A stretch of DNA of 64,000 bases from Natronococcus sp. CG52. GTDB taxonomy: Archaea > Halobacteriota > Halobacteria > Halobacteriales > Natrialbaceae. Below are positions 6,314-44,400 of this stretch, piece after piece. Both the position numbers and the translations under genes were made by a program. Position 1 is the first letter of the stretch, and each line of letters begins with the position of its first letter. The stretch is taken from contig NZ_CP099392.1 of NCBI RefSeq assembly GCF_023913515.1, forward strand, positions 1-64,000, read 5' to 3'. The notes below the pieces were generated by a model. It saw only the letters and a list, made by a program, of their open reading frames with translations. It did no database searches and had not been told where the DNA came from.

Positions 6314-6406
6314 TACTCGGCTGGAGGAATGTCCGATACATCAGTCGTTCGATCGAGTGATCACTCGGAACTCACCAGCCGCCTATCGCGAGCGGACGCG
6401 ACGCCA

Positions 6407-6756: not shown

Positions 6757-6988
6757 GGTGCTATCGCCTCCGGAAGGGCGGTAGTCGGTGATCGACGAGG
6801 GACGATACGGGTGTGGTCGATGGTGCCTCCATAGAGTCCGTATCCAGACTCGGCCTCAAAAACGTCAGTCAGACGGGCGTACGACACCGTGCAGGGCGCG
6901 GCGGATCGCTATCGAGCGACGCCGGGCGAGACGTCCAACGTCGCACGCTGCCGATCCGACGAAAGGAGTGTGCGGCGGCGTGAGTCGC

Positions 6989-7585: not shown

Positions 7586-7874
7586 GTTTCTCACCTCGTC
7601 GTACGTACGTGGCGAGCGGCTAACCGTTCGTCGGTTTCGACTGGACCGTAAGTGCCGTATTCCCCGCCTACGACCGCCATCAGCCAAGAGTTTGATAGTC
7701 TAACTTCTCGTCGACGCCACCTGTTCGCAGTCGAACAGCTGATCGGCTCACTCGAACGACTGACGCCCGACGGCGAACGCGTTACGATCGCGCTAGGGTT
7801 CCTCCTGCTCGGCGCCCACGGAGTGACGCTCCTGTTCGGTGTGCCTACCGCTCGATCCTCCCCGCGAGCGGCCC

Positions 7875-9486
7875 TCAATCTCCGAGGCGGAGTTCGATCA
7901 GCGCCAGTTCGTCCGATGGAACCGCTTCCGAGAAGGCCCGTTCGATCTCGTTCCACGTTCCGGGACGATAGGCCTCGATTCCGAAGCTCTCGGCGAACGT
8001 CACGAGATCCGGATTCGCGAGTTCGGTCCCGGTATGCTCGCCACGGTGTGTCACCTGCTGTTCGGAGATGAGGCCGTAATCGTCGTCGTTGAACACGACG
8101 ACCGTGAAGCCGCAGTCGAGTCGAGTCGCGGTTTCGATCTCCGCCGCGTTCATCAGGAAGCCGCCGTCGCCGGTTCCCGCGACGACGTTGGCGTCGACCG
8201 CGAGGTCCGCCGCGAGCGCACCCGGAACGGCGATTCCCATACTCGCCAGTCCGTTCGAGACGATGCAGGTGTTCGGATCGTACACCGGAAACGACTGTGC
8301 GATCGCCATCTTGTGACTGCCGACGTCCGAGACGAGGACGTCCTCGTCGGCCATGGCCTCCCGCAACAGCGGGAGCGCGTTTCTGACGGTGATCGGATCG
8401 CTCTCTTCGGGCGGCTTCGTCACCGCCTCGAGCAACTGGTCGTGTAGCTCGCGGCACCACAGTGCAGAGGCGTCCGACGAGAGCCGCTCGTCGATCGCCC
8501 TGAGCGTCGCGCCGACGTCCGCGACGATCTCGACGTCGGGGTTGTAGTGGCGGTAGACCTCTGCGGGCTCGTGGTCGACGTGAACGATCGTCTTTTCGAG
8601 GTTCGGATTCCATCCCTCCGGATCGTGTTCGGCGATATCGTACCCGACCGCGACGACGCAGTCCGCCCGCTCGACCGCGCGAGCCGCCTCGCCGTCCGGA
8701 CCCGAATCGAGCGTCATCAGCGAGGTCGGCTCGCGGTCGGAGATAGCGCCCTTGCCCATGTACGTCGCGACGACGGGGATCTCGAGGCGGTCGACGAGCG
8801 CACGGATGCTGTCGGCCGCGCGGGTTCGCACTGCGCCGTTACCCGCGAGCAGAATCGGTCGCTCGGCCTCCTCGAGTAGCGTCGCGGCTCGCTCGACCGA
8901 CTCGGGATCCGGATCCGGCCGGCGCACCTGATCGCGGATAGGAATCGGCTCGGCGTCGGTCTCCTCGCGAGCGACGTCCTCGGGGAACTCGAGGTGGGTC
9001 GCGCCCGGCTTCTCGTACTCGGCGAGCTTGAACGCCTTGCGGACCGATTCGGAGACGATCTCGGGGTCTGCAATCTGGGCGTTCCACTTGACGATCGGCT
9101 CGAACACGTCGATCACGTCGAGTGCCTGGTGGCTCTCCTTGTGCAGCCGTTCGCGACCGCCCTGGCCCGTGATCGCGACGAGCGGACTCTTGTCTAGCCT
9201 GTGCGTCGGCGACGCCGGTGATGAGGTTCGTCGCGCCGGGCCCCAGCGTCGAGAGGCAGACGCCCGCGTCGCCGGTCAGCCGGCCGTAAACGTCGGCCAT
9301 GAACGCCGCTCCCTGTTCGTGTCGGGTCGGAGCGAAGGTGATCGGAGAGTCCCGGAGCGAGAACAGCAGTTCCTCGATTTCTTCGCCCGGGAGACCGAAG
9401 ACGTACTCGACACCCTCGACCTCGAGGCAGTCGACGAGTAGATCGGATGCTAGTGGCACGTTTCTCTCGACTACCTTGCGGTACAT
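7875..9486 (-). pseudogene. Acetolactate synthase-like thiamine pyrophosphate enzyme, frameshifted
   Basis: Joined, the two frames give a full-length enzyme of about 536 residues. The N-terminal part has the TPP PYR-domain motifs FGLPGEEIEELLFSLRDS, APTRHEQGAAFMADVYGR (catalytic Glu in RHEQ) and STLGPGATNLITGVADAQ. The rest carries the central domain and the PP domain, with TGDGGFLMNAAEIETA and VFNDDDYGLI as the metal/diphosphate motif. The break is at 9198-9199: with one C removed, the minus strand reads A-D-A-Q-L-D-K-S-P-L-V-A-I-T-G-Q-G, as in the family. It is closest to catabolic acetolactate synthases, which condense two pyruvates, but related lyases cannot be excluded. An aldehyde dehydrogenase lies immediately upstream, reading the same way. 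Confidence 0.8.
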
Positions 9487-9661
9487 GATTCTACCACCCG
9501 CTCGAGAGTCGAGAGGACGAGTTTTCCTACCTGTACCCCGAGCGGAGTCATCCCTCGGAAATCGGCCACGGAGCCGGCTACCGGATGGGGCGGCGAGCAG
9601 AACGGTCTCGATCGGCGAGATGAAACACCTCCAGAAAACGGGATCGAACCGCTCGAGACGC

Positions 9662-11059
9662 TTACTCGGTTGCGGGAACGTCGTCGCCCTCGCCGGCGGA
9701 CTGCACCCAGATGGTCTTTCGATTGACGAACTCGTGGATCCCCTCCTTGGCGAGTTCGCGACCGTACCCGGACGCCTTCACGCCGCCGAACGGGAGTCGA
9801 GGATCGGACTTGACGAGTTCGTTGACGAACACGCAGCCGGCTTCGATCTCGCGGGCGATCCGCTCCCCGCGATCGAGGTCCTCGGTCCAGATCGAGCCGC
9901 CGAGTCCGTAGTGGATGTCGTTCGCGATCTCGATCGCCTCCTCCTCGTCGGCGGCGCGGAAGACGGCCGCGGCCGGTCCGAAGACCTCCTCCTCGGCCGC
10001 GGGACTGTCCATCGGCGGTTCGGCGAGCACCGTCGGCGGATAGTACCAGCCGTCGCGGTCGAGGGGTTCGCCGCCGCACTCGAGGGTCGCCCCCGCCTCG
10101 ACGCTCGCCTCGACCTGCTCGTGAACGTCCTCCATGAGATCTTCGCGCGCCTGCGGACCGATTTCGGTGCCGGACTCCATCGGATCGCCGATTTCGAGGG
10201 CCTCCATCTCCGAGACGAAGCGGTCGAGAAACTCGTCGAAGACCTCGTCGGCGACGATGAACCGCTTGGCCGCGATACAGGACTGCCCCGAGTTGATCGT
10301 CCGCGCCGTGGCCGCGGTTTCGGCCGCCGCGTCGAGGTCGGCGTCCTCGAGGACGACGAACGGGTCGCTCCCGCCGAGTTCGAGGACGTGTTTCTTCAGT
10401 TCGTTGCCGGCCTGTTCGGCGATGGCGCGCCCGGCACCCTCGCTCCCCGTCAGGGTGAGCGCGTCGAGACGGTCGTCTCGAACGACGTCCTCGATCGCGT
10501 CGGAGCCGACCAGCAGCGTCGAGAAGACGCCCTCGGGATAGCCCGCGTCGCGGAAGATCTCCTCGATCGCGAGCGCACAGCCCGGTACGTTCGAGGCGTG
10601 TTTGAGCAGGCCGACGTTGCCGGCAGTCAGGTGCGGCGCGGCGAAGCGAAACACCTGCCAGAACGGGAAGTTCCAGGGCATCACCGCGAGGACGGCTCCC
10701 AGCGGCTCGTAGGAGACGAACGTCTTCGCGTTCGGCTCGCTGCCGATTACGCGGTCGGCGAGGAACTCGTCCGCACGCTCGGCGTAGAAGTCACAGACCC
10801 ACGCGCACTTCTCGAGTTCGGAGTGGGATTCGTCGATCGGCTTACCCATCTCTCGGCTCATCAACTCGGCGTACTCGTCCTGCCGGTCGCGAAGGATCTC
10901 GCCGGCGTTCTCGAGAAGCTGCTGACGTTCGGTGATATTCGTCTCCGCCCACGATTCCGAGGCCGAAACCGCGTCCTCGAGAATGGAGTCGACGTCGTCC
11001 GCCGTGTGGTCGTCGTACGTTTCGATTACCTCGTCGGTCGCTGGATTGGTACTCTTCAT
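9662..11059 (-). CDS. NAD(P)-dependent aldehyde dehydrogenase (succinate-semialdehyde dehydrogenase-like)
   Basis: The open frame extends to 11248 but family alignment starts at ATG 11057-11059 (MKSTNPATDE), giving 465 residues. Catalytic residues are visible: N130 in MPWNFPFW, E227 in LELGGSDPF and nucleophile C261 in NSGQSCIAAKRF. The closing block PFGGVKASGYGRELAKEGIHEFVN is typical of succinate-semialdehyde and related medium-chain aldehyde dehydrogenases. The cofactor and true substrate are not fixed by sequence. It runs in the same direction as the acetolactate synthase-like gene about 175 bp downstream, so the two may be co-transcribed. A long intergenic region with a dispersed element (11566-11612) lies upstream. 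Confidence 0.88.
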   Translation of the reverse strand: MKSTNPATDEVIETYDDHTADDVDSILEDAVSASESWAETNITERQQLLENAGEILRDRQDEYAELMSREMGKPIDESHSELEKCAWVCDFYAERADEFLADRVIGSEPNAKTFVSYEPLGAVLAVMPWNFPFWQVFRFAAPHLTAGNVGLLKHASNVPGCALAIEEIFRDAGYPEGVFSTLLVGSDAIEDVVRDDRLDALTLTGSEGAGRAIAEQAGNELKKHVLELGGSDPFVVLEDADLDAAAETAATARTINSGQSCIAAKRFIVADEVFDEFLDRFVSEMEALEIGDPMESGTEIGPQAREDLMEDVHEQVEASVEAGATLECGGEPLDRDGWYYPPTVLAEPPMDSPAAEEEVFGPAAAVFRAADEEEAIEIANDIHYGLGGSIWTEDLDRGERIAREIEAGCVFVNELVKSDPRLPFGGVKASGYGRELAKEGIHEFVNRKTIWVQSAGEGDDVPATE

Positions 11060-11565
11060 TGGCAGTATCACCAACGCGCCGCGCGTTTCCGGTAGTACGG
11101 TAACGAACGACAAAGAGCTGTTCCCGGCAATCGGATTGCGCTCTTCGAATATTCCAACGAGGCACACAGTCTCGAGTCTCGTGAGCTCCGCCGGGGCATT
11201 CTCGATCGCGGCCGACAGTAAGGGAGCGACGATCGACAACGTCGTCAATCCGATTACGGATTCGACACCAGCACCGAATTGATTGATTCGGAATGCGTTT
11301 TATAGAACTCGAAAACGGTATATTTGACGCCTCTAATCGTGTCTTACTTGTGTCCTCAGGAGCACGTACGCGAATCAGGTATCCCGCACGAGCGCCTCTA
11401 GCGCGGTTACGGGCGAACGAAAAATATTGTATCGCTCGCGAGGAACGGACTCGTGTGCGATCGCCCGGAATTCGACTGGATCTCGTCCCTCTCTTTTCCG
11501 TATATATGACTCTAGTTATGATATGTATACGGTTATGATCGTACCGGTTCGCGATATCGTTGGGA

Positions 11566-11612
11566 TAAGATACCTACGGTAGCTACCTCAGCTAAGCTAC
11601 CTATTGTAGCTA
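11566..11612 (-). repeat. TAGCTA-rich dispersed element, copy A
   Basis: On the minus strand the core (11612 down to 11578) matches 37222-37256 on the plus strand at 30 of 35 positions, with shared blocks TAGCTA, AATAGGT, CTTAGCT and TAGCTACC. Both copies then continue with GTAGGTAT-TTA-like sequence, copy B having 8 extra bases. The repeated TAGCTA/TACCTA steps suggest a protein-binding or mobile-element end sequence. Confidence 0.65.
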
Positions 11613-11670
11613 TTTTAAAGACTCTCCTTCGCGTACCGTTAACGGTCGCAGCGAGTTTCGAGTCGAGATA

Positions 11671-11756
11671 CTATAGTACCAACTGAAACGGGTTCCACAC
11701 CGATCGCACGACGGCTGTGCGATCGGGCGTGTACTGACTTTCAGTGGCTACTATAG
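11671..11756. repeat. MITE-like palindromic repeat, copy 2
   Basis: This is an 86-bp near-perfect palindrome. The left arm CTATAGTACCAACTGAAA matches the reverse complement of the right arm, CTATAGTAGCCACTGAAA, at 16 of 18 positions. Inside sits a second hairpin, CCGATCGCAC-GACGGCT-GTGCGATCGG (10-bp arms). No obvious target-site duplication flanks it and it has no coding capacity. Confidence 0.85.
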
Positions 11757-11782
11757 CGAAGTAGTATCTGTACGTCCGAAAT

Positions 11783-14506
11783 TCAACGGTTCTGGGAGAG
11801 CCATCGGAGGAGACGATTACAGAGAACGGTGGCGACGGGGTGGCGTCCGTACCGATCGCAGACCCGAAACGTCAGCGCCGTTATCGATCCACTTCCGTAC
11901 CCGCGGACGACGAAGGGGCTACTCCAGTTCGCGAGCCATCCCTCTACGTAGCCGACGTGAACGCGGTCGACCGACGGGTTCAGATCGGTGGCGACCGCGT
12001 ACGGATAGAGTCCGTCGAACTCCCAGCCGAGGTGGCGATTCGGACAGATATCCTCGAGGAGTGCCGAGTCCCGGTAGTAGAACCCGGCGACGAGATTCCA
12101 GCTTTCGGCGCGCGGTAGCGAGCGGTAGGTGAACGGCCCGCCGGTTCTCATCTCGCCGTCTCGATCCGGGACGTGGACGACGGCACCGCCGTCGGTCGCG
12201 AACTGATCGATACGACTCGTGATTTCGGAGGTTACGGCGACGTCGACCGCATCGGAGAGCGTGTGCGTGACGGTCACGCCCTCCTCGGCGAGTCGCGAAG
12301 CGAACGCACCGTCCGCGTACACGGTCATCGACGGCGTCGCGCCACGGTCACCGTCGACGATCGTCACGGGTTCCGCCGTCGAGATCGATTCGTCTCGCGG
12401 CGAGAAGGAGACGGTCAACTCCGTCGTTCGCGCCACCTCGTCCGTCTCCGTTGGTGCTGTGACCGTCGTCGTAAGGGCGGTCGCGTCGTGAGCAGCGACC
12501 GAGACGGTCTCACCGCCTCGCTGTCGATCCAGGGACCACTCGAGCGGCCCCGAAACCGACTGATCGGTGTCGTTGACGACGGTGAGCGAAACCTCGACGG
12601 ACTGGTCGGCCCACGTGGCGTGCGACTCGGGCCTCGCGACGACCGTGAGCGGGCCGTTAACCGTCGAAAACCGGGGGGCGAAAGACTTCGGGTTTCGGTG
12701 GTAGTCGGACAGGCCGTTGAACTCCCACTCGATATCCGACAGTTCGGTCAGAACGTAGCCGGCGATCTCGTCTCGAACGCGCATCTCCTCTATGAGGTGT
12801 TTGATCGACGTGAACTCCCGCTCTTGCCAGGACGCTGCGAGATCGGCGTAGTCGTCGAAGACGTCGGGGAGCGTCGTCCGCTGAAGCCGCTCGTCGATCC
12901 CGTCCGGTTTCTTGAGCGCCTCGACGAGAAAGTCGTGGTCGAACCAGTGCGGATCCCCGCCGTATCGATCGCGGAGGGCGTCCACGTCGCTCAGCCCCCA
13001 CGTCCCGAGTTCCGAGACGACGAGCGGCGCGTCGGGATCGTCGAACTCGGTCGTAGCGTAGTTGTCGCCCGGATAGTGGCGGATGTGCTCGAGGTCGGCG
13101 GCCCAGCTATCGGCCTGATCGGGACTGACGAAGTAGCGGTGGTAGTCGTTGACGTCGGTCGCCACGTGCGCCCAGCCGGAGTTGTCACACACGATCCGCG
13201 TTGGATCGCGTTCGCGAACCGACCGATAGAGATCGGCGAGGAACCGCTGTTTCTCCGCATCCGTCCAGAGCGTCTCGTCGGCGTCGTGGTGACCGAGACC
13301 CCACTCCTCGTTGTACAGCGACCAGATGACGACGCTCGGCCGGTTGTAATCGCGTTCGACGAGCCCCTCGACCTGTGCCCTCACTTCCGCACGCGAGCGC
13401 TCGGTGTCCCGCATCGGGTTTGCGGGCTCTTGCCACACCAGCATCCCGTTCCGATCGGCACACTCGAGAAAGTCCGGATGAGCGGGCTTGACGTGTTTCC
13501 GGATGAGATTGAACCCGAGGTCGGCGGCCAGTTCGATCTCGCTGCTGAACGTCTCCTCGTCCCGGGGCCGGTAGAGCGTCTCCGGGTAGTATCCCTGTTC
13601 GAGAACGCCGCGAAGCGTAATCGGTTCGCCGTTCAGCAGGAACTCCCCGTCCGCCGTCTCGAAGCTCCGCATTCCGAAGTAGTCCTCGTACCGATCGACG
13701 ACCGTCCCGTCGCGCTCGAGGATCACGGTGAGGTCGTACAGCGCCGGCTCGTCGGGACACCAGTAGGTGGGGTCGTCGAACTCGAGAACGGCCGTCGAGT
13801 CGGCGGCCGGCGAGACGGTGGCGCTCGCCTCCGAATCGCCGTCTCCGTCGGCCAGCACCGTCGCCCGCAACGCCTCGACGTCGGCCGATCCCGTCGCGAA
13901 CTCGAGATCGACGACGGCACGATCCCGTTCGAGGTCGGGAGTGACGGGTGCGTCGACGATTCGGGTTTCCGGACGGAACTCGAGGCTGACGGACTGCCAG
14001 AGGCCGGAGACCCGAGTGTACCACGGATCTCCCTGTTTTCCGTGCGGAATCTCCGAGAGATCCGCGGGATCGGTGACCGCGACCACCATCGCGTTCGCTC
14101 CGCGCTCCAGTTCGTCGGTGACGTCTATCGTGAACGGGAGGTAGCCGCCGCGGTTCTCGCCGACGCGCTCGCTGTTGACCCACACCGTCGTCTCGTAGTC
14201 CGCGGCGCCGAAGACGAGAAACGCCCGCTTTCCCGCCGGAACCGCCGCGTCCAGGTCGATCGATCGACGATACCACGCCGTCCCAGTGTACTCTCGATAC
14301 GCGTCGTCTTCCTGCCACGCTCGGGGAATCTCGACCGCGTGTGCACGGTCCGGCCACGTCGCGTCTCGTTCGTACCACCGGTTCGTTCGGCCGCTGCGTT
14401 CCGGATCGATGAGAAACTCCCACTCGCCGTCGAGCGCGACCGAGCGCCGTCGGTCGCTCGCGTCCTCCTCGGACGCTCCCGTCGGTGACCCGGTCACGAC
14501 TCCCAC
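11783..14506 (-). CDS. Glycoside hydrolase family 2 enzyme (beta-galactosidase/glucuronidase type)
   Basis: The 907-residue protein has the GH2 domain order: jelly-roll sugar-binding domain (about 20-185, with GKRAFLVFGAADYETTVWVN), immunoglobulin-like domain (190-280), TIM barrel (about 285-600) and C-terminal beta domains. The acid/base lies in WSLYNEEWG (E400) and the likely nucleophile is E499 in VVSELGTWG. No signal peptide is present, so it acts in the cytoplasm on imported oligosaccharides. GH2 members cleave terminal beta-galactose, beta-glucuronate or beta-mannose; galactonate dehydratases nearby favour galactose. The start is GTG 14504-14506. A closely related paralogue lies 2.3 kb upstream (16822-19508) and is frameshifted, leaving this as the intact copy. 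Confidence 0.9.
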   Translation of the reverse strand: MGVVTGSPTGASEEDASDRRRSVALDGEWEFLIDPERSGRTNRWYERDATWPDRAHAVEIPRAWQEDDAYREYTGTAWYRRSIDLDAAVPAGKRAFLVFGAADYETTVWVNSERVGENRGGYLPFTIDVTDELERGANAMVVAVTDPADLSEIPHGKQGDPWYTRVSGLWQSVSLEFRPETRIVDAPVTPDLERDRAVVDLEFATGSADVEALRATVLADGDGDSEASATVSPAADSTAVLEFDDPTYWCPDEPALYDLTVILERDGTVVDRYEDYFGMRSFETADGEFLLNGEPITLRGVLEQGYYPETLYRPRDEETFSSEIELAADLGFNLIRKHVKPAHPDFLECADRNGMLVWQEPANPMRDTERSRAEVRAQVEGLVERDYNRPSVVIWSLYNEEWGLGHHDADETLWTDAEKQRFLADLYRSVRERDPTRIVCDNSGWAHVATDVNDYHRYFVSPDQADSWAADLEHIRHYPGDNYATTEFDDPDAPLVVSELGTWGLSDVDALRDRYGGDPHWFDHDFLVEALKKPDGIDERLQRTTLPDVFDDYADLAASWQEREFTSIKHLIEEMRVRDEIAGYVLTELSDIEWEFNGLSDYHRNPKSFAPRFSTVNGPLTVVARPESHATWADQSVEVSLTVVNDTDQSVSGPLEWSLDRQRGGETVSVAAHDATALTTTVTAPTETDEVARTTELTVSFSPRDESISTAEPVTIVDGDRGATPSMTVYADGAFASRLAEEGVTVTHTLSDAVDVAVTSEITSRIDQFATDGGAVVHVPDRDGEMRTGGPFTYRSLPRAESWNLVAGFYYRDSALLEDICPNRHLGWEFDGLYPYAVATDLNPSVDRVHVGYVEGWLANWSSPFVVRGYGSGSITALTFRVCDRYGRHPVATVLCNRLLRWLSQNR

Positions 14507-32993: not shown

Positions 32994-33056
32994 TTCGATG
33001 AAGGACGGACAAGTTCCGAACCGGCGCCCGAAGGCGGATTCCGGAGGGTGTCCGAT

Positions 33057-33966
33057 ATGGCCGTGAGCACGGACCGACTCTCGTCGTACCGAAAGCAGTT
33101 CGTCTCCCTCTCGACGGAGACGTGGCTCGGCTGGGGACTGTTGTTACCGGCAGGACTGTTGATGGGCGTCATCATCCTCTATCCCATCGTCGACGGCGTT
33201 CTAACGAGCTTCCAGATGCGGTCGTTCCTGCGGCCGGAGGCTCGCGAGTTCGTCTTCATGTCGAACTATCGGATGCTCGTCCAGGACGGCGTGTTCTGGA
33301 CCGCACTGTGGAACTCGGCGGTGCTGACCGGCGTATCGGTCGCCCTGCAGTTTCTGCTGGGTCTCGGCTGCGCTGTTACTCAAACAGAAGGTCCCGGGGA
33401 TCACGATCTTCCGGAGCATCACGATGGTCACCTGGGTTCTGCCAGTTATCGTGATCGTCATCGTCTTTAACTGGCTCGTCCAGCCCGGATACGGCCTCGT
33501 TAACCTCGTCCTCGCGGAGTTCGGACTCCCGACGGACTACTGGTTCTCGAACACCACGTGGGCCCTCCCGCTGATCGTTCTGATGCACGTCTGGAAGAAC
33601 GCCCCGTTTTTCGCCATCGCGCTGTTCGCCTCGATGCAGTCGATTCCCGACGAACTCTACGAAGCCGCGAGGATGGACGGCGCATCCGCGGTACAGCAGT
33701 TCCGCTACATCACCCTGCCGAACATCTCGTACGTCGCGATGATCATGATCGTGCTACACGTCCTGTACACGTTCAATAACTTCGACTTCGTCTGGCTCTC
33801 GACCGGCGGCGGTCCGCTCCGAGCCACCGAAGTCCTGCCGACGTACGTGTACAAGCAGGCGTTCGACCAGTACCTGCTCGGCTACGCGGCCAGTATCGGC
33901 GTCGTGATGCTCATCATCATGATGACGTTTACCGTCGTCTACGTTAAACTGGAGGATCTCGACTGA
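33057..33966 (+). pseudogene. CUT1-type sugar ABC permease, first subunit (system B), frameshifted
   Basis: From ATG 33057 (MAVSTDRLSSYRKQF) the frame encodes the first helices (LGWGLLLPAGLLMGVIILYPIVDG) up to FLLGLG at about 33368. It then loses sense, while a second frame carries KQKVPGITIFRSITMVTWVLPVIV and the rest, including the EAA motif YEAARMDGASAVQQFRYITLPN, to the stop at 33966. Adding two bases (GGC-GCT-GCG-CTG) restores G-A-A-L-L-L-K-Q and a protein of about 303 residues; deleting one base is also possible. The stop overlaps the next ATG as TGATG, so the downstream permease depends on this gene for coupling. Confidence 0.82.
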
Positions 33967-34844
33967 TGTTGAACACGCTCGTCACCCGATTCGAGATGCG
34001 CCTTGACGACGAGATGACCGTCCGGCGCGCGGCGTTCGTCTACGCGATGCTCCTGCTGTACTACGGGTTCCTGTTGATCCCGCTGTTCTGGCTCCTCAGG
34101 TCTTCGATCGTCACCGACGAGATGCTGCGCGCGCGGGAAATCAACCTCCTCCCGCTCGCACACGTGACGATCGAAAACTACGCGACGGTGCTGGCCAGCG
34201 GGACGTTCCGGATGTACTTCGTCAACTCCATGATGATCGCGGTTGCCACGACGGTGTTGACGCTCGGCGTCGGCATCCCGGCGGCGTACTCGGTGAGCCG
34301 ATTCGACTATCCGGGCCGCGACTACGTCGTACTGGGACTCATCTCGAGCCAGATGCTGCCGCTGGTGCTGGTGTTGATCCCGTTCTTTACGGTCATGTTC
34401 CGTATGGGACTGGTCGATACCAGAGTCGGACTCGTCTTCGCCCACGCCGTCGGCGTGCTGCCGTTCGTCGTCTGGCTGTTGAAGGGGTACTTCGACGCGA
34501 TCCCCGAAGCGCTGGACGAGGCCGCAAAGATGGACGGCTGCGGGCATCTCGAAATCATGTACCGGATCATCGTTCCGCTATCGCTGCCGGGGATCGCCGT
34601 CGCGGGCTTCTACGCCTTCGTCGGTTCGTGGAACGACTATCTGTTCGTATCGATCCTCTCACAATCGACGGGGACGCGAACCTTGCCGCTCGGACTGCAG
34701 CTCTTCCAGACGGCACAGCAGGTTGACTGGGGCGCGGTTACCGCGGCCGCCGTCGTAACAGCGGTTCCGGTCGTCCTGTTGTTCGCACTGGTTCGAAAGT
34801 GGCTCGTCGAGGGCCTGTCGAACACCGGTGGAAAGGGGGTCTGA
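33966..34844 (+). CDS. CUT1-type sugar ABC permease, second subunit (system B)
   Basis: The 292-residue protein has six helices and the MalG-type EAA motif DEAAKMDGCGHLEIMYRIIVPLSLPG near residue 185. Long hydrophobic segments include AFVYAMLLLYYGFLLIPLFW and YVVLGLISSQMLPLVLVLIP. The ATG overlaps the preceding stop by one base. It pairs with the frameshifted permease, the ATPase at 28986 and the binding protein at 31686 to form an oligosaccharide importer. The gene is intact. Confidence 0.93.
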   Translation: MLNTLVTRFEMRLDDEMTVRRAAFVYAMLLLYYGFLLIPLFWLLRSSIVTDEMLRAREINLLPLAHVTIENYATVLASGTFRMYFVNSMMIAVATTVLTLGVGIPAAYSVSRFDYPGRDYVVLGLISSQMLPLVLVLIPFFTVMFRMGLVDTRVGLVFAHAVGVLPFVVWLLKGYFDAIPEALDEAAKMDGCGHLEIMYRIIVPLSLPGIAVAGFYAFVGSWNDYLFVSILSQSTGTRTLPLGLQLFQTAQQVDWGAVTAAAVVTAVPVVLLFALVRKWLVEGLSNTGGKGV

Positions 34845-34896
34845 CGCCGCGAGTATTACCTCTCGCGATCGGTCGCTGACGGTCGATCGCGATGCA

Positions 34897-34911
34897 GTAT
34901 CTTATTATAGC
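34897..34911 (+). promoter_or_regulatory. TATA-like promoter of galactonate dehydratase copy 2
   Basis: GTATCTTATTATAGC is centred about 27 bp before ATG 34932, giving the gene its own leaderless-type promoter although it closely follows the permease genes. Confidence 0.5.
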
Positions 34912-34931
34912 AAAATCACGATATAACGCGT

Positions 34932-36134
34932 ATGACTGAGAAACTGAGCGAATCGGCGGCAGAACCCGACGGCTCCGGAGATTCCGTCATTACCGAGTAC
35001 GAACTGTTCGAGGTCCCGCCGCGCTGGCTGTTCCTCAAGGTGACGACGAGCGACGGCACCGTCGGCTGGGGCGAACCGGTCGTCGAAGGACGCGCGAAGA
35101 GCGTCCGAACCGCCGTCGAAGAACTGATGGACGGTTATCTGCTCGGCGAGGACCCTGCCCGGATCGAAGATCACTGGCAGACGATGTACCGCGGCGGCTT
35201 CTACCGCGGCGGCCCCGTGCTGATGAGCGCCATCGCCGGGATCGATCAGGCGCTGTGGGACATCAAGGGCAAGCGGTTCGGCGCACCCGTGTACGAACTC
35301 CTCGGCGGAGCAGCCCGGGATCGCATCCGCGTCTACCAGTGGATCGGCGGCGATCGGCCCGCCGAAGTCGGGGAAGCGGCCGCAAAGAAGGTCGAAGCGG
35401 GCTTTACCGGGCTCAAAATGAACGCGACGCCCGAGCTGGAACGGATCGACACTCCAGCAGCGGTCGACGCGGCCCGCGATCGGCTCGCCGAAGTTCGCGA
35501 GACCGTCGGCGACGAAATCGATATCGGCGTCGACTTTCACGGCCGAGCGAGCAAAACGATGGCGAAGCGCCTCGTCGCCGCGCTCGAGCCGTACGAGCCG
35601 ATGTTCGTCGAGGAACCGGTACTCCCCGAACACAACGACGCGCTGCCGGAGATCGCTCAACATACGACGATCCCGATCGCGACGGGCGAACGAATGTTCT
35701 CGCGCTGGGATTTCAAGTCCCTGTTCGAGCAGGGCGTCGTCGATCTGATCCAGCCCGACCTGTCTCACGCCGGCGGGATCACCGAGGTGAACAAGATCGC
35801 GTCGATGGCCGAGGCGTACGATGTCGCGATGGCCCCCCACTGCCCGCTCGGGCCGATCGCGCTGGCCTCGTGCATCCAGGTCGACGCCTGCTCGCCGAAC
35901 GCGCTCATTCAAGAGCAGAGCCTCGACATCCACTACAACGAGACCAGCGACGTGCTGGACTATCTGTCGGATCCGTCGGTTTTCGCCTACGAGGACGGCT
36001 ACGTGGATCTGCCGGACGAACCGGGACTCGGGATCGAAGTCGACGAGGGCGTCGTTCGCGAACGAGCGCAGGAATCGATCGACTGGCACAATCCCGTCTG
36101 GCGTCACGACGACGGCAGCGTCGCGGAGTGGTGA
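34932..36134 (+). CDS. dgoD: D-galactonate dehydratase-like enolase-superfamily enzyme, copy 2
   Basis: The 400-residue protein is a close paralogue of the 15634-16782 enzyme, with an extra 18-residue N-terminal tail before the shared YELFEVPPRWLFLKV. The blocks VGWGEPVVEGRAKS, GGFYRGGPVLMSAIAGIDQA, GVDFHGRA (Asp and His), VEEPVL (Glu), ATGERM (Glu) and MAPHCPLGP (catalytic His) are all kept, as is the terminal WRHDDGSVAEW. It should convert D-galactonate to 2-keto-3-deoxygalactonate. Two copies, one per transporter module, may serve separate induction conditions. It converges on the SMP-30 lactonase gene, which would produce its substrate. Confidence 0.88.
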   Translation: MTEKLSESAAEPDGSGDSVITEYELFEVPPRWLFLKVTTSDGTVGWGEPVVEGRAKSVRTAVEELMDGYLLGEDPARIEDHWQTMYRGGFYRGGPVLMSAIAGIDQALWDIKGKRFGAPVYELLGGAARDRIRVYQWIGGDRPAEVGEAAAKKVEAGFTGLKMNATPELERIDTPAAVDAARDRLAEVRETVGDEIDIGVDFHGRASKTMAKRLVAALEPYEPMFVEEPVLPEHNDALPEIAQHTTIPIATGERMFSRWDFKSLFEQGVVDLIQPDLSHAGGITEVNKIASMAEAYDVAMAPHCPLGPIALASCIQVDACSPNALIQEQSLDIHYNETSDVLDYLSDPSVFAYEDGYVDLPDEPGLGIEVDEGVVRERAQESIDWHNPVWRHDDGSVAEW

Positions 36135-36262
36135 TCCCGGGCGACTGAGAGCACCAGACGCGCTATCACGATTCTTCGAGTATGCGGCCGTCGACACCGA
36201 CTCGATCCGTAGTATCGAAACGCGGCGAGTCGCTTATCGTAACGTTCGGTCCCGAACAGCGG

Positions 36263-37132
36263 TCACTCGAGCGCGATCCGCGATCGGAACTCGGGAACAC
36301 CACTGACGCCGACGTCGGGAATTCGAAAGAGCGCGCCTGCACCCTCGCCCTCGACGGACCGATCTGCGTCGGTGAGCGCAGTTGTCAGGTAGAGGTCGCG
36401 GTACTCGGGACCGCCGAACGTAACCGATGCGACCTTTCGCGCGGGGAGTTCGATCTCGTCGACGACCGATTCGTGCGCATCGTACCGAACGACTCGGCCG
36501 CCGTTCCACCGGGCGGACCACACGTGGTCGGTCTCGTCGACGGTCATCCCGTCGGGGACGCCGTCTCCGCTCGGCGTCTCGAGGAACGTTCTTCTATTCG
36601 AGAGTTCGCCCGTGTCCCGGTCGTAATCGAACGCGTAGACCGCGTTGGCCTCGGACTCGGTGAAGTAGAACGTCTCGAGGTCGCGCGAGAAGCCCATCCC
36701 GTTGGGGATGTCGGTGTCTTCGACGACCGTCGTCGCAGTTCCGTCCGTCTCGAGTCGGTAGAGGTCTCCCAGTTCGTTCTCGCCGGGCATCGTTCCACAG
36801 AATACCCGCCCCTCCGGATCGGCAATGACGTCGTTGAACCTCGTTTCGGCGTCTATTTCGGCGACGGGATCCGCGGTTTCGGAACCCGGGTTCCAGCGGC
36901 TGATAGTGCCGCGGGTAAACAGGAGCAGCGCACCGTCCGCTTCGATAGTGAATCCACCGAGGGGGTCCCCGTCAGTTTGGTAGACGACGTCGTGTTCGTT
37001 ACGGCCGGGATGGTACCGATAGAGTCGTCCGGAAGGGATGTCGACCCAGTACAATCGCCGCTCTTCGGGATGCCACAGGGGGCTTTCACCGGTATGTGTA
37101 CGAGTGTCGGCGACTCGTTCTAGAGCAGTCAC
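36263..37132 (-). CDS. SMP-30/gluconolactonase-family sugar lactonase
   Basis: The 289-residue six-bladed propeller carries the four metal ligands of the family: E16 (THTGESPLW), N100 (TRFNDVI), N144 (IPNGMGF) and D194 (VPDGMTV). Enzymes of this family open aldonolactones with a divalent metal. In this setting galactono-lactone is the likely substrate, feeding the galactonate dehydratases. The start is GTG 37130-37132; no better codon lies close. The gene converges with galactonate dehydratase copy 2 and reads away from the TAGCTA-rich element copy B about 90 bp upstream. Confidence 0.88.
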   Translation of the reverse strand: MTALERVADTRTHTGESPLWHPEERRLYWVDIPSGRLYRYHPGRNEHDVVYQTDGDPLGGFTIEADGALLLFTRGTISRWNPGSETADPVAEIDAETRFNDVIADPEGRVFCGTMPGENELGDLYRLETDGTATTVVEDTDIPNGMGFSRDLETFYFTESEANAVYAFDYDRDTGELSNRRTFLETPSGDGVPDGMTVDETDHVWSARWNGGRVVRYDAHESVVDEIELPARKVASVTFGGPEYRDLYLTTALTDADRSVEGEGAGALFRIPDVGVSGVPEFRSRIALE

Positions 37133-37424
37133 GTAACTCGTTTTGCGCTGTCCTCACTTGAATCTACTCGAGAGATAGCGGTCGGCGCCCGGTTCCCCGT
37201 TCGAACAGGAGAGCAACTGGGTAGCTATAATAGGTGACTTAGCTAAGATAGCTACCTCAACTGAGGTAGGTATTTTACCTATTGTTTACTAAAACCACAC
37301 GGATCAGCCGTGTACCGAAATGGTCGAAGTTACCCGAACGGTTCAGATCGGACGTATACAGTGCGACGGCCCTCAAGCCGTCGCTCGAAAACGGCCGCAG
37401 AGGATCCGGTCGGCGGGCCGGTTC
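37133..37424. other. Intergenic region with element copy B and a small hairpin
   Basis: This A+T-rich gap contains the TAGCTA-rich element (37222-37277) and a hairpin ACACGG-ATCAG-CCGTGT (37297-37313). No gene is seen. Confidence 0.5.
37222..37277 (+). repeat. TAGCTA-rich dispersed element, copy B
   Basis: It matches copy A (11566-11612, reversed) at 30 of 35 core positions, then has eight extra bases (within CTCAACTGAG, itself an inverted repeat) before the shared GTAGGTAT-TTA end. The element lies about 90 bp upstream of the lactonase start. Confidence 0.65.
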
Positions 37425-37600
37425 TTACCGTGCGCTCTCGAGGATCGCCTCGAGATCCTCGCGGTCGACCCGGCACGGGTTGCCGACCAGGAGCCGCTGG
37501 ATCTCCCCGGTCTTCTCCGCCAGGCGCGGGACGACGTCTTCCTCGACGCCGGGTTCGTCGAAACCGGACGGAATCCCGATACCGGTAGACGGCGCTTCGA
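37425..37600 (-). pseudogene. C-terminal remnant of an iron-containing alcohol dehydrogenase
   Basis: The minus-strand frame ending at TAA 37425-37427 encodes GIGIPSGFDEPGVEEDVVP… followed by EIQRLLVGNPCRVDREDLEAI and LESAR. This matches the conserved C-terminal helices of iron-dependent alcohol dehydrogenases/maleylacetate reductases (LGIPxGF…NPRPVxREDxxxIL). Upstream of about 37600 the frame is Arg-rich noise, so the N-terminal three-quarters of the gene is gone. The remnant abuts another broken gene read from the opposite strand, implying a deletion junction near 37600. Confidence 0.7.
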
Positions 37601-37616
37601 CGCGGCTGCGGCGCGG

Positions 37617-37836
37617 TCGCTCACCCCCTCGAGATCGCTCGCTACAGCGACGGTATCTCTCCGGGCCGGCACCTACCTGAAGACGCTCACCCACCGGGAG
37701 GCGACCGAGGAGGGGCCGTCCGGATCGTCCCGTGGGCGGCCAGGATCTGCGAACTCGAGGGAACCCGCGCCCACCAGTTATCCGCGGAGGCGCGCCTCCG
37801 CGAGGAGATCAGTCCGGCTACGGCCCCGCAGGAGTG
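37617..37836 (+). pseudogene. C-terminal remnant of a histidinol-dehydrogenase-like gene
   Basis: Across two plus-strand frames one can read ARYSDGISPG, then TYLKTLTHREATEEG, then AVRIVPWAARICELEGTRAH and QLSAEARLREEIS before TGA 37834-37836. This order and wording match the C-terminus of HisD-family NAD-dependent alcohol dehydrogenases, especially paralogues outside histidine synthesis (…ARYxGGLxxGxFLKTVT…, …ARxxxLEGMxxHxxSAxxRL). At least two frameshifts and loss of the N-terminus show it is dead. Its head touches the alcohol dehydrogenase remnant, and a MITE-like copy lies 50 bp downstream. Confidence 0.6.
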
Positions 37837-38097
37837 ACGACGGTTCGACGCGCCGAGTGACGGTCGGGGCCGCCGTCAGCGCCGGCTATAGTACCGACTG
37901 GAACGGGTTACACACCGATCGTTCGGCGGTCGTGCGTCGGGCGTGCACAGGCTGTCAGTGACTGCTATAGTCCGAGCAGACGGCGAGGCGGCGACGAGCC
38001 GCGGCGCCGTAGCGAACGGGCAGACCGGAATCAGACCCAGCGGCGAGCGAGGTGGCGACGAGCAGGGTGACGACGAGCGGGTCGGCGGCGAGCGTCG
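37837..38097. other. Intergenic region with MITE-like copy 3 and GGCGACGAGC repeats
   Basis: After the repeat (37886-37970) several imperfect copies of GGCGACGAGC-type sequence follow up to the end of the malic enzyme gene. No gene is seen. Confidence 0.45.
37886..37970. repeat. MITE-like palindromic repeat, copy 3
   Basis: This 85-bp copy starts CTATAGTACCGACTGGAACG and ends in GTCAGTGACTGCTATAG, again forming terminal inverted repeats. The middle (ACACCGATCG…GTGCGTCGGGCGTGCAC) is the degenerate counterpart of the inner hairpin in copy 2. It is the most diverged of the three copies. Confidence 0.8.
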
Positions 38098-40353
38098 CTA
38101 CTCGGAGCCCTGCGCTTCGACCGTCGCGACGGCCGCGAGGTTCACGATGTCCCGAACCTCGTCCTCGCGCTGGAGCACGTGGACCGGCTTGTCCATCCCC
38201 GCCAGCATCGGCCCGACCGCCTCCGCGTCGCCGAGGCGCTGGAGGAGCTTGTACGCGATGTTGCCCGCCTCGAGGTTCGGGAGGACGAGCACGTTCGCCG
38301 GCTCCTCGAGGTCGGCGAACTCGTAGGTCCCCTCGAGCAGTTCCTCGACGACGGCGGTGTCGGCCTGCATCTCGCCGTCGACCGGGAAGTCGACCGCGGG
38401 ATCGGCTCGCAGTTGTTCTGCCGCGCGTCGGGGCTTGCGCGTGCCTTCGTTGTCGACGCTGCCGAAGTCCGAGTACGACAGCAGTGCGGCCCGCGGCTCG
38501 ACGTCGAACCGGCGAGCGATGTCGGCCGCGTGTCGAGTGACTTCCGCGAGCGTCTCCGCGTCGGGATCCTGATTGACGGTCGCGTCCGCGAGGAAGACAA
38601 CCCGGTTCTTGAACGTGAGCATGTAGACGCCCGCGGCGTACTCGACGTCGTCCGCCGTGCCGATCACCCGCAGAAGCGGACGGAGCGCCGACGGGTAGTG
38701 GTGTGTCAACCCCGTCAACATCGCGTCGGCGTCTCCCTGCTGGACCATCACCGACGCGAAGTAGTTGCTGTCGCGGATGCGCTCTCGCGCCGCCGTCCGG
38801 GTCACCCCCTTGCGCTGTCGGCCTTCGTAGAGCGCGTCGACGTACTCCTCGTACTCGCCGGCCGCCGGATCGACGACCTCCGGATCGAACTCGAGACCGA
38901 GGTCGGCGGCGAGACGTTCGATCTCCGCCTCATTCCCGATCAGGACCGGCTCCGCGACACCGCGTTCCGCGAGCTGGTAGGCCGCGCGGACGATCTGTTC
39001 GCTGTGGCCCTCCGCGAGCGCGAGGCGCCTGGGATCGCTCTTGGCCTTGTTGCGCACGATCCGCATCATCTCGCGGGACTTGCCCAGGCGGGCTTCGAGC
39101 CGTTCCTCGTACTCCTCGAGATCGATCTCGGTGCGGGCGGAACCCGACTCCATTGCGGCGCTGGCGACCGCGGGAGCGACTTCGAACAGCACGCGAGGAT
39201 CCATCGGCTTCGGAATGATGTACTCGGGACCGAACTGGAGCGGTTGGTCGCCGTAGGCCTTGCGAACGGCGTCGGGGACGTCCTCGCGTGCGAGCTCGGC
39301 GAGCGCCTCCGCGGCGGCGACCTTCATCGCCTCGTTGATCTCGGTGGCTCGGGCGTCGAGCGCCCCGCGGAAGATGAAGGGGAAGCCGAGCACGTTGTTG
39401 ACCTGGTTCGGATAGTCCGAGCGCCCGGTCGCCATGATGACGGCGTCGTCGCGGGCGCCTTTCGCCTCCTCGTACCCGATCTCGGGATCCGGGTTCGCCA
39501 TCGCGAAGACGATCGGATCGTCGGCCATGGATCGGATCATCTCCCGGTCGACGATGCCGCCGACGGAGAGCCCGACGAAGACGTCCGCACCCCTCATCGC
39601 GTCCGCGAGGTCCCCCTCCGGGACGTCTCGCGCGAACTCGCGGCTGTGAGGATCCAGATCGCCCGCCTCCGCCCGGTCAGTCGTGAGGATGCCGTCGATG
39701 TCGACCATCGTGACGTTCTCCCGCCGAACCCCGAGCGAGGCGTAGAAGCGCGCCGTCGCGACCGCCGCCGCGCCGGCGCCCGCGAAGGTCACCTGCACGG
39801 ACTCGAGATCCTTGCCCGCGAGTTCGGCGGCGTTCAGCAACGCCGCGCCGCTGATGATCGCCGTCCCGTGTTGGTCGTCGTGAAAGACGGGAACGTCCAT
39901 TCGGTCGCGAAGCCGCTCCTCGATAGTGAAACACTCCGGCGCCTTGATATCCTCCAGGTTGATGCCGCCGAACGTCGGCCCCATTCCCGCGACCGACTCG
40001 ACGAAGGCGTCCGGATCCTCGAGGTCGAGTTCGATGTCGAAGACGTCGATATCGGCGAAGCGCTTGAACAGGACGCCTTTACCTTCCATGACGGGTTTCG
40101 ACGCCTGCGGACCGATATCGCCGAGTCCGAGGACGGCGCTGCCGTTCGAGACGACGCCGACGAGATTTCCCTTTACGGTATACCGGTATGCAGCGTCCGG
40201 GTCGGCCGCGATCTCGCGACACGGGCCGGCGACGCCGGGCGAGTAGGCGAGACCGAGTTCTCGCTGCGTGTTCGTCGGTTTCGTCGTCGTCGTTTCGATC
40301 TTTCCGGCCGGATCCGCTTCGTGGTAGTCGAGCGAATCGTCCTCCAGTGTCAT
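38098..40353 (-). CDS. maeB: Malic enzyme with fused phosphotransacetylase-like domain
   Basis: The 751-residue protein is a two-domain malic enzyme of the MaeB type. The N-terminal part (about 1-430) has the catalytic Tyr in [12 protein letters not shown], Lys in [10 protein letters not shown], the metal site HDDQHGTAI, and the NAD(P)-binding [14 protein letters not shown]. The C-terminal part (about 435-745) resembles phosphate acetyltransferase ([36 protein letters not shown]), which in this family is regulatory and non-catalytic. It decarboxylates malate to pyruvate with NADP+ or NAD+. A TATA-like TCGTTTATAGG lies about 22 bp upstream of the ATG, consistent with a leaderless stand-alone transcript. 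Confidence 0.95.
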
Positions 40354-40823
40354 GGATTCTCGTTATCCTATAAACGAATAAAAACACAGGGTCTGTTCGA
40401 AGGGAGTTTTCGATAGTTCCGCCGACTACACGTCATTTTTTATACTACAGTATCCGGGTGATAGCTCTCCAGCATCCGAGATGCCGAATCTGTCCGGTCC
40501 CGAACGAACCGTGATCGACGTCGCGACACGGAAGAGAGAATGCCGTTCTTCTGGACAGGCAGGCGAGATATAACGCTTTCGCGAACAGTACGACGGGGAA
40601 CGACTCGAAACCACTCCGTTCGTGTATTGTATACTATTTCAGATATAACTGCCAAAATAATCATTTTCTGACCGTTTATCTCTGCGAAATTCGAACGTAG
40701 AAATTTACGTGACTCGATCTCACGTACCCGAGATATCACTACTGTCTTGGAATCGTACTTGGAACGGAGACGACCGATAGTCGGCTATTGGTACTGTCCG
40801 ACCATCGATATCAAATACAGAGC
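40354..40823. other. 470-bp intergenic region, no gene seen
   Basis: It contains the malic enzyme promoter at its left end and otherwise A+T-richer sequence without coding character or clear repeats. Confidence 0.5.
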
Positions 40824-41060
40824 GTGAAACTGTACTGGCCCTCACCGAATCCGCCGTGTAAGCCGAAAGGGCGCACTCACCGTGGGAAACTCATCGACGG
40901 AGACGAAATCGAGGGGTGGTGGGTAGAGCGGGAAAATTGGCAGGGTCCGAACACGTATCACCTCTTCTGTTTGACGTGCTGTGTCGAGAAGATGCCCGAG
41001 TGGTCGAATCGCCCGAACGTCGATACCGAGGGCGAGGCGAGGGGGATTCTGTACGAGTGA
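40824..41060 (+). CDS. Small Cys- and Trp-rich protein, unknown
   Basis: From GTG 40824 (MKLYWPSPNPPC) the product is 78 residues; the TTG at 40788 would add 12 residues but is a poor start. C12, C49, C52 and C53 (PPCKPKGRTHRGK and HLFCLTCCVEK) could hold a metal, and Trp is unusually frequent (YWP, GWW, NWQ, EWS). It looks like a compact haloarchaeal zinc-binding protein. It stands alone between malic enzyme and the propionyl-CoA synthase gene, with no operon partner, so no role is proposed. Confidence 0.5.
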   Translation: MKLYWPSPNPPCKPKGRTHRGKLIDGDEIEGWWVERENWQGPNTYHLFCLTCCVEKMPEWSNRPNVDTEGEARGILYE

Positions 41061-41449
41061 GTCTCGAATACCGCTCCCGCGAATCCAAGACCACGCCTGA
41101 TTCTGATACCAGTTACATCACAGAAACCGATCGTATCTTATCGTCGTTCCTAACCGCAGACGGACGAGCGATTGCGCTCGATCGCGTACCGTCCGACCCG
41201 CGATCGTAACGAGGCCACGCATCCGCGACGTACCCGGTGTCGATCGCGCGGGCCTCCCGCGGGTTTCGCGTGCTCGAACCCCGCTACGGCTGACTCGAGA
41301 TATCCGAGGTTTACAGACCGAGCAGCCGGAGAATGATTCCGATCGCGGAACGTGATAATTAACTGACCCGTCCTCAGCGTAGCCCGGGATATCGCCGTCA
41401 ACTCCCCTCCTCGGAAGAGGTCCGGATTGCGGGCGACCGAAGGAAACTA
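41061..41449. other. 389-bp intergenic region, no gene seen
   Basis: This is the 3' flank of the large synthase gene. No coding frame, clear terminator or repeat was recognised. Confidence 0.5.
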
Positions 41450-44400
41450 TCAACTCGAGCGGTCGGCCCACGCGAGGAACAGTTCCTCCTTCGAGGTCAA
41501 GCCTTCCTCCGGAAGCGCGTGCTCGACGACGTAACTGCTCGCCTCGTGTTCGTTGTCCCACAGCAGCTGGTGCGCCTCCGGGAGGGCCGTCCAGTCGACG
41601 ACTTCGGGGTCGGTGAGATCGATCTCGCCCGCATCGACGGCCTCGTTCAACTGTTCGACCTCGTACGCGTTGCTCAGGTGCGTTCCGAGGATCTCCGCGG
41701 TCGGCATCAGGACGTCGCGCTGGCGCATCCACACCTGCGGCGCGTACATCGAGTACCGCCTGTCGGCCATCTCCTCGCTGTAGACGACGCAGCCGGTGTG
41801 CGGTTTCGTGAGCATGGTGCTGACGAAGAGCGCGTCGTGGTCGGCCCGATCGAAGACTACGTCGGGATACCCTCTCGGATTCTTCGGGGTCCGGAGCAGT
41901 TCGCCGACCGCCCGCCCGATCGGCTTGAACACCTCGTCGGTGAACTTCTGGACGACGCGTCTGAACGCCTCGGGATCGTCCTGCGCGTCCGGCAGGTCGG
42001 GCAGGGTCTCGGGCCAGCGGAACTCGTCTTCGCGGCGCTTCAGCCCCTCGAGGCTCACCGTCCCTTCGACGGCGTCGCCGTAGCCGAGCGACTCGACGAA
42101 CTCCTGTTGCTCGTCGGTGTAAGTCACGACCGCGATCCGCGCGCCGGCCTCCCGGGCGTCCTCGACGGCTCGGAGGCCGGTTTCGTCGACCACGCCGTCC
42201 GGGCCGGTGTCGGTCCCGTAGTAGACGAGGACGCCGTCGCCCGCCCGGACGTCGCTCCGCTCGAACATCTCGGCCGGCGTCGACGCGCCGGGTTTTCCGA
42301 GAAACGTCAGGTAGTAGCCGGTCGAGGCGCCGTAGAAGGTCAGCTTCCCGCCCTCCTCGAGAAGCTGGAACGCGCGTGGGAACGACAGTTCGCCGGCGTG
42401 GCTGACGGCGTAATCGGCCCGCCGTCCGTCGTGGTGGTCCTCGTACGCCTCGACGAACGCTTCGCCGTCCTCCTTCCACGTTTCCCACTCGTCTTCGGCG
42501 CTGGGGATCCGGCCCCAGATACCGTCGTACGGGCCGGCGGTTCGGTCGATCGCGTCGGCGCCGAGGGTTTCGATACGGTCGGCGCGCTCCTCGCTCGAGC
42601 ACAGCCCCGTGACCTCGACGTCGTTGCGCGCGGCGAGTTTCGTCGTCTCCCAGCCGGTGCCGGTCGAGGCGCCCTCGACGAACATCGTCGTCCCGGAGTC
42701 GATGTCGAGCGTCGTGAACAGCGCACGCCAGACGGTTCCCATGGCCAGGACGTAGGCGCCCGCCTGCTCGAGCGTCGCCTCCTCCGGGATCGGCAGGACC
42801 TGCGGCCCCTGTGCGAGCATGAACTGCTGGTGGCTGCCGTTCGGTCCCTCGTACCCCTGGATCGAGAAGTCGGCGTACATGGGGTCGAGCCCCATCGTCG
42901 GCGAGAGGAGGTCGCTCCGGCCCGAGTAGATCGTCACCAGATCGCCGACCGCGACGCGGCCCTCGCGCGTGACCGCCTCGCCGGCGTCGACGACGAGGGC
43001 GACGCCCCCGCTACCGGTCACGTGGTAGTCCTGATCGTGACTGTCGAACTGACTCACGGGAACCCCCGTGATCGCCCAGATGTCGTTGAAGTTGACCTCG
43101 CTCGCGAGGACGTACACCAGGACCTCGTTCGGCCCCGGTTCCTCGACCGGAACGACCTCCTCGACCTCCGCCTCCGCGGGATCGCCGTGTGCGGCCGCGC
43201 CGGTCTCGTCGTCCTTGACGACGGCCTGGGCGTACTGGTAGTCGGGTATCTCGTCGACGCCGGGGAAGAACGGCTCGCCCGGCGGGAGCAGTCGTCCCTC
43301 CTCGACGAGCGCTCGCTCCTCCTCGCTCGAGGGAGTGAATCGTTCCCGGGTCGGCAGCGGCTCGCTCGCCCGGTCGAGGAACTTCTCGATCCCCGCCTTG
43401 CCCCCGTCCGGATCGACGACGGCCTCGGCGAAGTGGGTCGCCTCGCGCTCGAGGCCGGCCTCGATCCCCTCCTCGAAGCCGGTTCGAACCGCCGAGACGG
43501 CCCGATCGAACGCCTTCGAGCGGCCCTCGCTGACGTGCTCGCACTGGGTTCGGTTCCGATCGACGATCGGATCCTCGAGCACGTCCTCCGGGAACTCGCC
43601 CGGCTCCGCCCACGACGAGCGGTTCTCGAGTCGCCCCTTGCGAGCGTCGGCGAGCACGTCCGACTCCGTCCTGATGTGCTCGCGGGCGAGTTCGGACGCT
43701 CGAGCGCGGGCGGTCCGGTCGGTCTCGAGTTCGTCGACCAGTCCCATCTCGAGGGCCTCCTCTGCCTCGACGGCCCGGCCGTTCGTGATCAGCGTCACGG
43801 CGTCCCTGATCCCGTCGGTCCCGCGCTCCTCGGCGAGGAGACGGGGCAGCCGCTGGGTGCCGCCGTAGCCCGGGATGAGATTGAGATTGAGCTCCGGCTG
43901 GCCGAACTCGGCGCCCCGCTCGGCGACCGAGTAGTGGGCCGCGAGCTGGAGTTCGTTGCCGCCGCCGAGCGCCGAGCCGTTCACCGCGGCGACGACGGGG
44001 ACCGACAGCTCCTCGATCCGGCGGAACGCCTCGTGGGCCTTGTTCGGGAACGTGATCGCCTCGTCGAACTCGTGGACCTCTTCGAGGAACTGCTCGACGT
44101 CCGCGCCGGCCACGAAGTTGGACGGACCGGCGCCCGCGATCACCACCGCGCCGACGTCCTCGCGGCGGTCGAGGTGCTCGAGGACGGTGTTGAGTTCGTC
44201 GAGCGCCCGCTCGTTGAGCGCGTTCACCGGCGGGCTATCGACGGTGACCGTCGCGATCCGTTCATCGGTGGCCGCTTCGCGAACGGGATTGTACTGAACC
44301 GTGATATTTCGGTACCGCTCGAGGATCTCCTGTTCGGCGGTGAGATCCTGACGCCGCCGCCATCGCTCGCACTTGGGGCGGATCTCCTCGACCACGTCGG

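Follow-up and report, generated by a model that had tools for sequence, protein, structure and literature searches.

Tails of two truncated dehydrogenase genes as the probable scar of a 6.6-kb deletion in a haloarchaeal replicon

The C-terminal ends of two dehydrogenase genes adjoin in the window studied here. It covers the opening 64 kb of the plasmid-like contig C2 (392,952 bp), part of a haloarchaeal genome of 4.74 Mb (G000). They are very probably the scar of a deletion of about 6.6 kb, which removed a block running from a hisD-like gene to an iron-dependent alcohol dehydrogenase (Fe-ADH) gene and closed at a short word shared by both. The event is ordinary gene loss with an unusually clear scar. 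Read in this way, the window shows a catabolic block vanishing from a haloarchaeal replicon, at a joint that is readable to within a few bases.

The two tails and their joint

The first tail, at window positions 37626-37837 on the plus strand, preserves about 70 codons from the C-terminal end of a dehydrogenase paralogue in the HisD family, recognised by blastn and tblastn. Natronococcus amylolyticus DSM 10524 has an intact gene of this family (L022:5835-7157), whose 3' end positions 37626-37839 match at 84.7% DNA identity (E 6e-61, blastn), and the translated tail corresponds to residues 373-440 of the 440 in the intact paralogue (E 7e-24, tblastn), with its stop codon ending at 37837. Short translated pieces of the remnant alone found no match in Pfam, so this homology had to come from relatives. 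A sequence-only reading of the same DNA had placed a HisD-like end without its N-terminus on this strand, as the alignment bears out. It had also spoken of several frameshifts; frameshifts are present, but the wording was slightly generous, as alignment with the N. amylolyticus genome (G001) gives two, a 4-nt gain and a 1-nt loss that jointly restore the frame.

The second tail, at 37425-37625 on the minus strand, is an Fe-ADH remnant of about 65 codons, recognised from a relative's gene and alignment to it. Its stop codon can be read at 37425-37427. Positions 37432-37618 match the end of the intact N. amylolyticus Fe-ADH gene (L022:11605-12861) at 77.7% DNA identity (E 5e-36, blastn), and a protein search gave 67% identity to residues 349-417 of 418, in agreement with the earlier call of an Fe-ADH end lacking its N-terminus. 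The Pfam model ADH_Fe_C scored 19.5 bits (E 8e-4), under its 27-bit cut-off, so the homology call rests on the relative.

The leftover tails would no longer code for working proteins and would have gained indels since truncation. Of the differences between the HisD tail and G001, 17 affect codon positions 1 or 2 and 15 affect position 3. The corresponding ratios in pairs of intact genes are 6:27 (G001-L026), 3:15 (G001-L025) and 1:10 (G001-G003), giving Fisher p values of 0.004, 0.016 and 0.014, which are unadjusted, not independent and drawn from three of six intact pairs. The other three pairs, outside the Fisher comparison, have similar-looking ratios (7:26, 2:18 and 7:28). For the Fe-ADH tail, changes at positions 1 and 2 against position 3 stand at 19:27, versus 18:29 in the comparison (p 0.83), with no signal of relaxed selection; its decay is therefore read from its truncated state and a single frameshift, which the alignment with G001 shows as a 1-nt loss. 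The missing signal is also what a recent deletion leads one to expect.

Between the tails, the alignment places the deletion joint at 37626-37633, where the window holds the 8-nt word CCCTCGAG, common to both partner sequences in G001. The sequence to its left matches the Fe-ADH partner and that to its right the hisD partner. The tails had been said to touch near 37600; they do adjoin, but their meeting point is 37626-37633. In G001, which is a proxy only for the pre-deletion sequence (78-85% identical), both partners carry a 10-nt word, CCCTCGAGGT, and 6,601 bp separate its two occurrences. When 200,000 pairs of breakpoints were drawn at random from these two genes, 0.07% shared at least 8 nt and 0.0115% at least 10 nt. 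The shared word (8-10 nt) is thus longer than chance, with a related species as proxy and under a null that used the same genes and models only some biases. Against this reading, the hexamer CTCGAG is common here, occurring 150 times in the 64-kb window and 75 times in the 19-kb L022. The length of the word would be a signature of microhomology-mediated deletion, a repair mechanism suggested by the scar.

Both genes are cut at one common joint and are intact elsewhere in the same order, as a deletion-derived pseudogene pair would be. Among the reading frames examined, none is a third gene covering the region, in line with the sequence-only reading. Four longer open reading frames overlap it (37320-37961 plus, 37282-37680 plus, 37373-37672 minus and 37310-37588 plus), none with a Pfam match at E 1, and no Rfam family reaches its gathering score in window 33000-42000. 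It is hardly credible that the remnant keeps a residual role, such as a terminator or a small peptide between its neighbours. Open frames do cross it mechanically, but both tails are frameshifted, the HisD tail has an excess of changes in the first two codon positions, and the Pfam and Rfam searches just given found nothing.

The intact block in relatives and its probable loss

Nine genomes of the genus were compared, G000 included. Besides G000, the HisD tail was matched in two of them, G001 and G003. The G001 locus (L022, G001:C31:203000-222000; NZ_AOIB01000031.1 in L024) begins with a malic enzyme/phosphotransacetylase fusion, followed by the hisD-like gene (5835-7157, minus strand), a short-chain dehydrogenase (SDR) gene, a 192-aa protein with no Pfam match and a sodium:solute symporter. 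An IclR regulator, the Fe-ADH gene (11605-12861, plus strand), a second IclR gene (IclR2), a GntP permease, a nickel-pincer isomerase and PdxA complete the order. The segment between the positions of the two tails therein comprises the rest of both genes, the SDR, the small protein, the symporter and the first IclR regulator. In the window, the malic enzyme gene is followed by the hisD tail and the latter directly by the ADH tail, so the window has the G001 order minus 6,601 bp. It had been proposed that a larger segment was deleted between the two genes and that relatives might retain it. N. amylolyticus DSM 10524 is such a relative, keeping the 6,601 bp with equal order and orientation.

The N. 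amylolyticus block resembles the window in its two terminal genes, in how they are oriented and in the malic enzyme/phosphotransacetylase gene next to them. It differs in that both genes are complete, with 6.6 kb between the tails, and in its flanks: the ADH side continues with IclR2-GntP-isomerase-PdxA instead of an SMP-30 gene, and the spacer between hisD and malic enzyme is about 55 bp and lacks the MITE-like repeat described below. The conserved right neighbour in the window, an intact NADP malic enzyme/phosphotransacetylase fusion of maeB type (38098-40353, minus strand; Pfam), serves as the synteny anchor; its counterparts in L022 and L023 are about 83% identical to it in DNA.

Across the genus genomes, presence of the block is patchy. 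In G003, the block is present without Fe-ADH, and its IclR spacer holds nothing convincing from the block. In G002, G005, G006 and G007, the second IclR gene is the next gene after malic enzyme, 520-640 bp beyond the end of the alignment, and these spacers likewise show no convincing remains of the block. The best match to a block gene in any of the spacers was 24 residues of Fe-ADH in G003 (E 0.026). G008 has different genes downstream of malic enzyme, and the malic enzyme of G004 is more distant (78%). The symporter was found in two of the nine genomes (G001 and G003) and has no match in G000 at E 1e-40. A close full-length Fe-ADH occurs in G001 only; G000 has distant ADHs (at most 43% identical) and the remnant. 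G000 also lacks a full-length copy of the HisD paralogue (E 1e-60), its sole full-length HisD being 45% identical to the paralogue and carrying biosynthetic-type residues (L069).

This patchiness, particularly in the four genomes where IclR2 follows malic enzyme, would also suit a block that was never ancestral here, with two fragments arriving independently or an already broken piece being transferred. HisD-paralogue-like genes on four Natrinema plasmids point the same way. However, order, orientation and the malic enzyme neighbour all agree with G001, and the hisD tail is about as divergent from G001 (85% identity) as the adjacent malic enzyme gene (83%). A microhomology joint also accounts for both truncations in one event, and independent arrival or transfer of a broken piece is accordingly judged improbable.

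The quality of the assembly also bears on the joint. Window 1-35690 repeats C2:357262-392952 at 99.92% identity (7 mismatches and 21 gap positions), and C2 is probably circular, a replicon of about 357 kb whose ends were left untrimmed and in part unpolished. For example, an ABC permease-like gene at 33048-33966 is split into two overlapping frames, but the far-end copy of this stretch carries two additional bases near 33367-33369, and a sequencing error probably accounts for the split. Since these redundant ends reveal indel errors, with roughly one gap position in every 1.7 kb of the comparison, some small indels of the window may be sequence errors, and the joint or the frameshifts could be blamed on an assembly that was not polished. 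The end overlap stops 1.7 kb short of the remnant, and independent records of the joint were not found: none of 25 matching plasmid records covers 80% of window 36200-40500 (own-genome records possibly excluded), and six plasmid records matching window 37400-37900 do so on the hisD side only, without the joint. Nevertheless, a small indel error is unable to truncate two genes by 6.6 kb. The three indel events, one of them a 4-nt gain, fall within about 400 bp and so exceed the overlap error rate, and the HisD tail has base substitutions at constrained positions. Neither an intact HisD paralogue (E 1e-60) nor the symporter (E 1e-40) was found elsewhere in the genome, and an artefact is thus highly unlikely.

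Under the favoured deletion, the ancestral replicon would have carried the hisD-like, SDR, small protein, sodium:solute symporter, IclR and Fe-ADH genes next to malic enzyme. Loss of about 6.6 kb would then have fused the Fe-ADH interior to the hisD-like interior at CCCTCGAG, most likely through microhomology-mediated end joining or replication slippage. The whole working block would have been lost, leaving two tails that later gained indels. In a separate event, a MITE-like element would have inserted into the spacer that separates the hisD tail from malic enzyme.

This MITE-like repeat (37886-37970, no strand assigned) is a degenerate copy of about 85 bp with imperfect inverted repeats, its ends reading CTATAGTA.../...TACTATAG. 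It starts about 50 bp past the HisD tail, where the sequence-only reading had seen it. The element is short, multicopy and has inverted ends, and is taken to be non-coding from its length. The family has at least 40 matches in its own genome, of which at least 24 reach 70 bp; these figures include the present copy and count two places twice as the contig ends overlap. Of the eight other genus genomes, seven have copies, those of G007 being partial; G008 has one short match only, to a different part of the query. Two further copies lie in the window, at 11671-11756 and 4890-4928, the latter apparently interrupted. A single strand of the repeat folds no better than shuffled sequences (z 0.34). 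As a cause of the deletion, the element was rejected, lying about 250 bp from the joint and beyond the hisD stop codon. Because it is outside the joint, nothing ties it to the deletion, and it is read as a probable later or independent insertion.

On the left, the ADH tail is followed by an intact SMP-30/gluconolactonase-like gene (36263-37132, minus strand; Pfam SGL, E 5e-73) and then by an enolase-superfamily gene, where G001 has IclR2 instead. Beyond the ADH stop codon on this side, SMP-30 gene included, the DNA has only short weak matches in the other eight genus genomes. A second rearrangement or a different ancestral left flank must therefore be assumed. A chromosomal GntP region of G000 (L111) was considered as the other half of a translocation and fails to explain this flank: it is 76-78% similar to the GntP-to-PdxA part of G001, but at E 1e-8 nothing in it matches malic enzyme, IclR2 or any block gene from L022.

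AT-rich inverted repeats upstream of the SMP-30 gene (37217-37285) are possible regulator-binding sites, and the surrounding stretch (37210-37300) folds better than all but one of 200 shuffles (z -2.7). Between the MITE-like repeat and the malic enzyme gene lies a short tandem array rich in GC (38040-38094; 15-bp period, 3.7 copies). Another malic enzyme fragment, with four stop codons, is found at a distant place on the same contig (L112, G000:C2:201569-201973), with 74% protein identity and, over 557 bp, 81.5% DNA identity to the window's malic enzyme gene. Malic enzyme tblastn matches in the remnant region itself (unmasked, composition uncorrected; best E 7e-5) have low identity in several frames and were set aside as composition noise.

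What the lost block may have encoded

The HisD paralogue (at least 55% identity) occurs in 16 of 125 family genomes. HisD-family matches as such occur in 121 of the 125, four genomes having none at E 1e-60. Around 18 paralogue loci, SDR, symporter, small protein and aldehyde dehydrogenase genes were each counted at least eight times, IclR at least seven, zinc alcohol dehydrogenase at least six and Fe-ADH at least five (three at least 71% identical to that of G001, itself included). These counts are lower bounds, as they come from a rough ORF caller and incomplete contigs.

Our best guess is that the lost block encoded a predicted pathway of alcohol-to-acid oxidation. The earlier suggestion that a former catabolic cluster was lost here suits the intact segment, which looks catabolic (symporter, SDR, HisD-like enzyme, Fe-ADH and IclR); the genome would have lost the corresponding ability. 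More tentatively, the block may represent an undescribed haloarchaeal catabolic module, with a third HisD-fold dehydrogenase, a two-step alcohol-to-acid conversion and sodium-symporter uptake, that species of haloarchaea have repeatedly gained and lost; the window would then be a frozen intermediate of loss. This possibility is one that we put at somewhat short of an even chance.

Databases name the paralogue histidinol dehydrogenase, though two substrate-site positions differ from haloarchaeal HisD in all 30 rows of the residue table below. Five of the six plasmid records matching window 37400-37900 are likewise annotated hisD, and the sixth has no annotation. A search of open-licence papers found no description of a haloarchaeal HisD paralogue.

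Comparison with known enzymes and deletion pathways

Two enzyme families provide reference points for the paralogue. In a search of solved structures, the intact paralogue scored best against a dihydroxypropanesulfonate (DHPS) dehydrogenase (308 bits), with the best HisD at 292. Identities are about 45% to haloarchaeal HisD and 40-42% to HpsN, an (R)-DHPS dehydrogenase. PMC11382572 describes His126 as distinguishing HpsN from HisD and Lys353 as a second sulfonate contact. These positions were read in intact homologues, as the window remnant lacks those parts. The table has 30 paralogue rows (18 loci from the paralogue search, L023 and 11 more from 30 family-genome loci), of which some are identical or near-identical (L026/L045), and 14 rows of haloarchaeal biosynthetic-type HisD, a subset of the 121 matching genomes.

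Like HpsN (8wwe and 8v35; PMC11382572), the paralogue keeps Glu318, His319, Asp352 and Lys353 in 30 of 30 rows. Unlike HpsN, it has Leu at the diagnostic position 126, within the 122-126 motif, in 29 rows, with His in one (G025). The resemblance to biosynthetic HisD lies in overall identity, a common Pfam family and the same catalytic Glu/His positions. It ends at the substrate site, where all 14 biosynthetic-type rows have Tyr at both 126 and 353, and in distribution, since the biosynthetic family is matched in nearly all family genomes and the paralogue is patchy. By these residue markers, the paralogue would be neither HisD nor HpsN. A sulfonate role for the lost enzyme, raised by the sequence-only reading, is therefore not favoured, although Lys353 is shared: Leu126 prevails, and a scan of nine proteins from the G001 block and its flanks found no sulfo-lyase (SuyAB, Xsc or CuyA).

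G025, one of the 16 paralogue genomes, has a different kind of locus. There (L113, G025:C1:690000-709000; 3009-12788), a HisD-like gene with HpsN-type His126 (GGNFTHIAS) has as neighbours a SAF-domain (SuyA-like) gene, a galactarate/altronate-dehydratase-family (SuyB-like) gene, an SDR gene, TRAP transporter genes and IclR. A YeiH-like exporter is also present, under the NCBIfam cut-off. The lyase is placed at family level only, and its one solved-structure match is a galactarate dehydratase. L113 is a candidate haloarchaeal locus for conversion of DHPS through sulfolactate to sulfite; PMC10468875 mentions suyAB in Halorubrum.

For the deletion itself, the closest known system is microhomology-mediated end joining in Haloferax volcanii, presented as a deletion-forming pathway in PMC7776575; PMC7521656 likewise reports it. 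The window deletion differs from the Haloferax process in being reconstructed from a comparison of species instead of observed in experiment. The two agree in their outcome: a short common word stands at the joint, and the segment between its two copies is lost.
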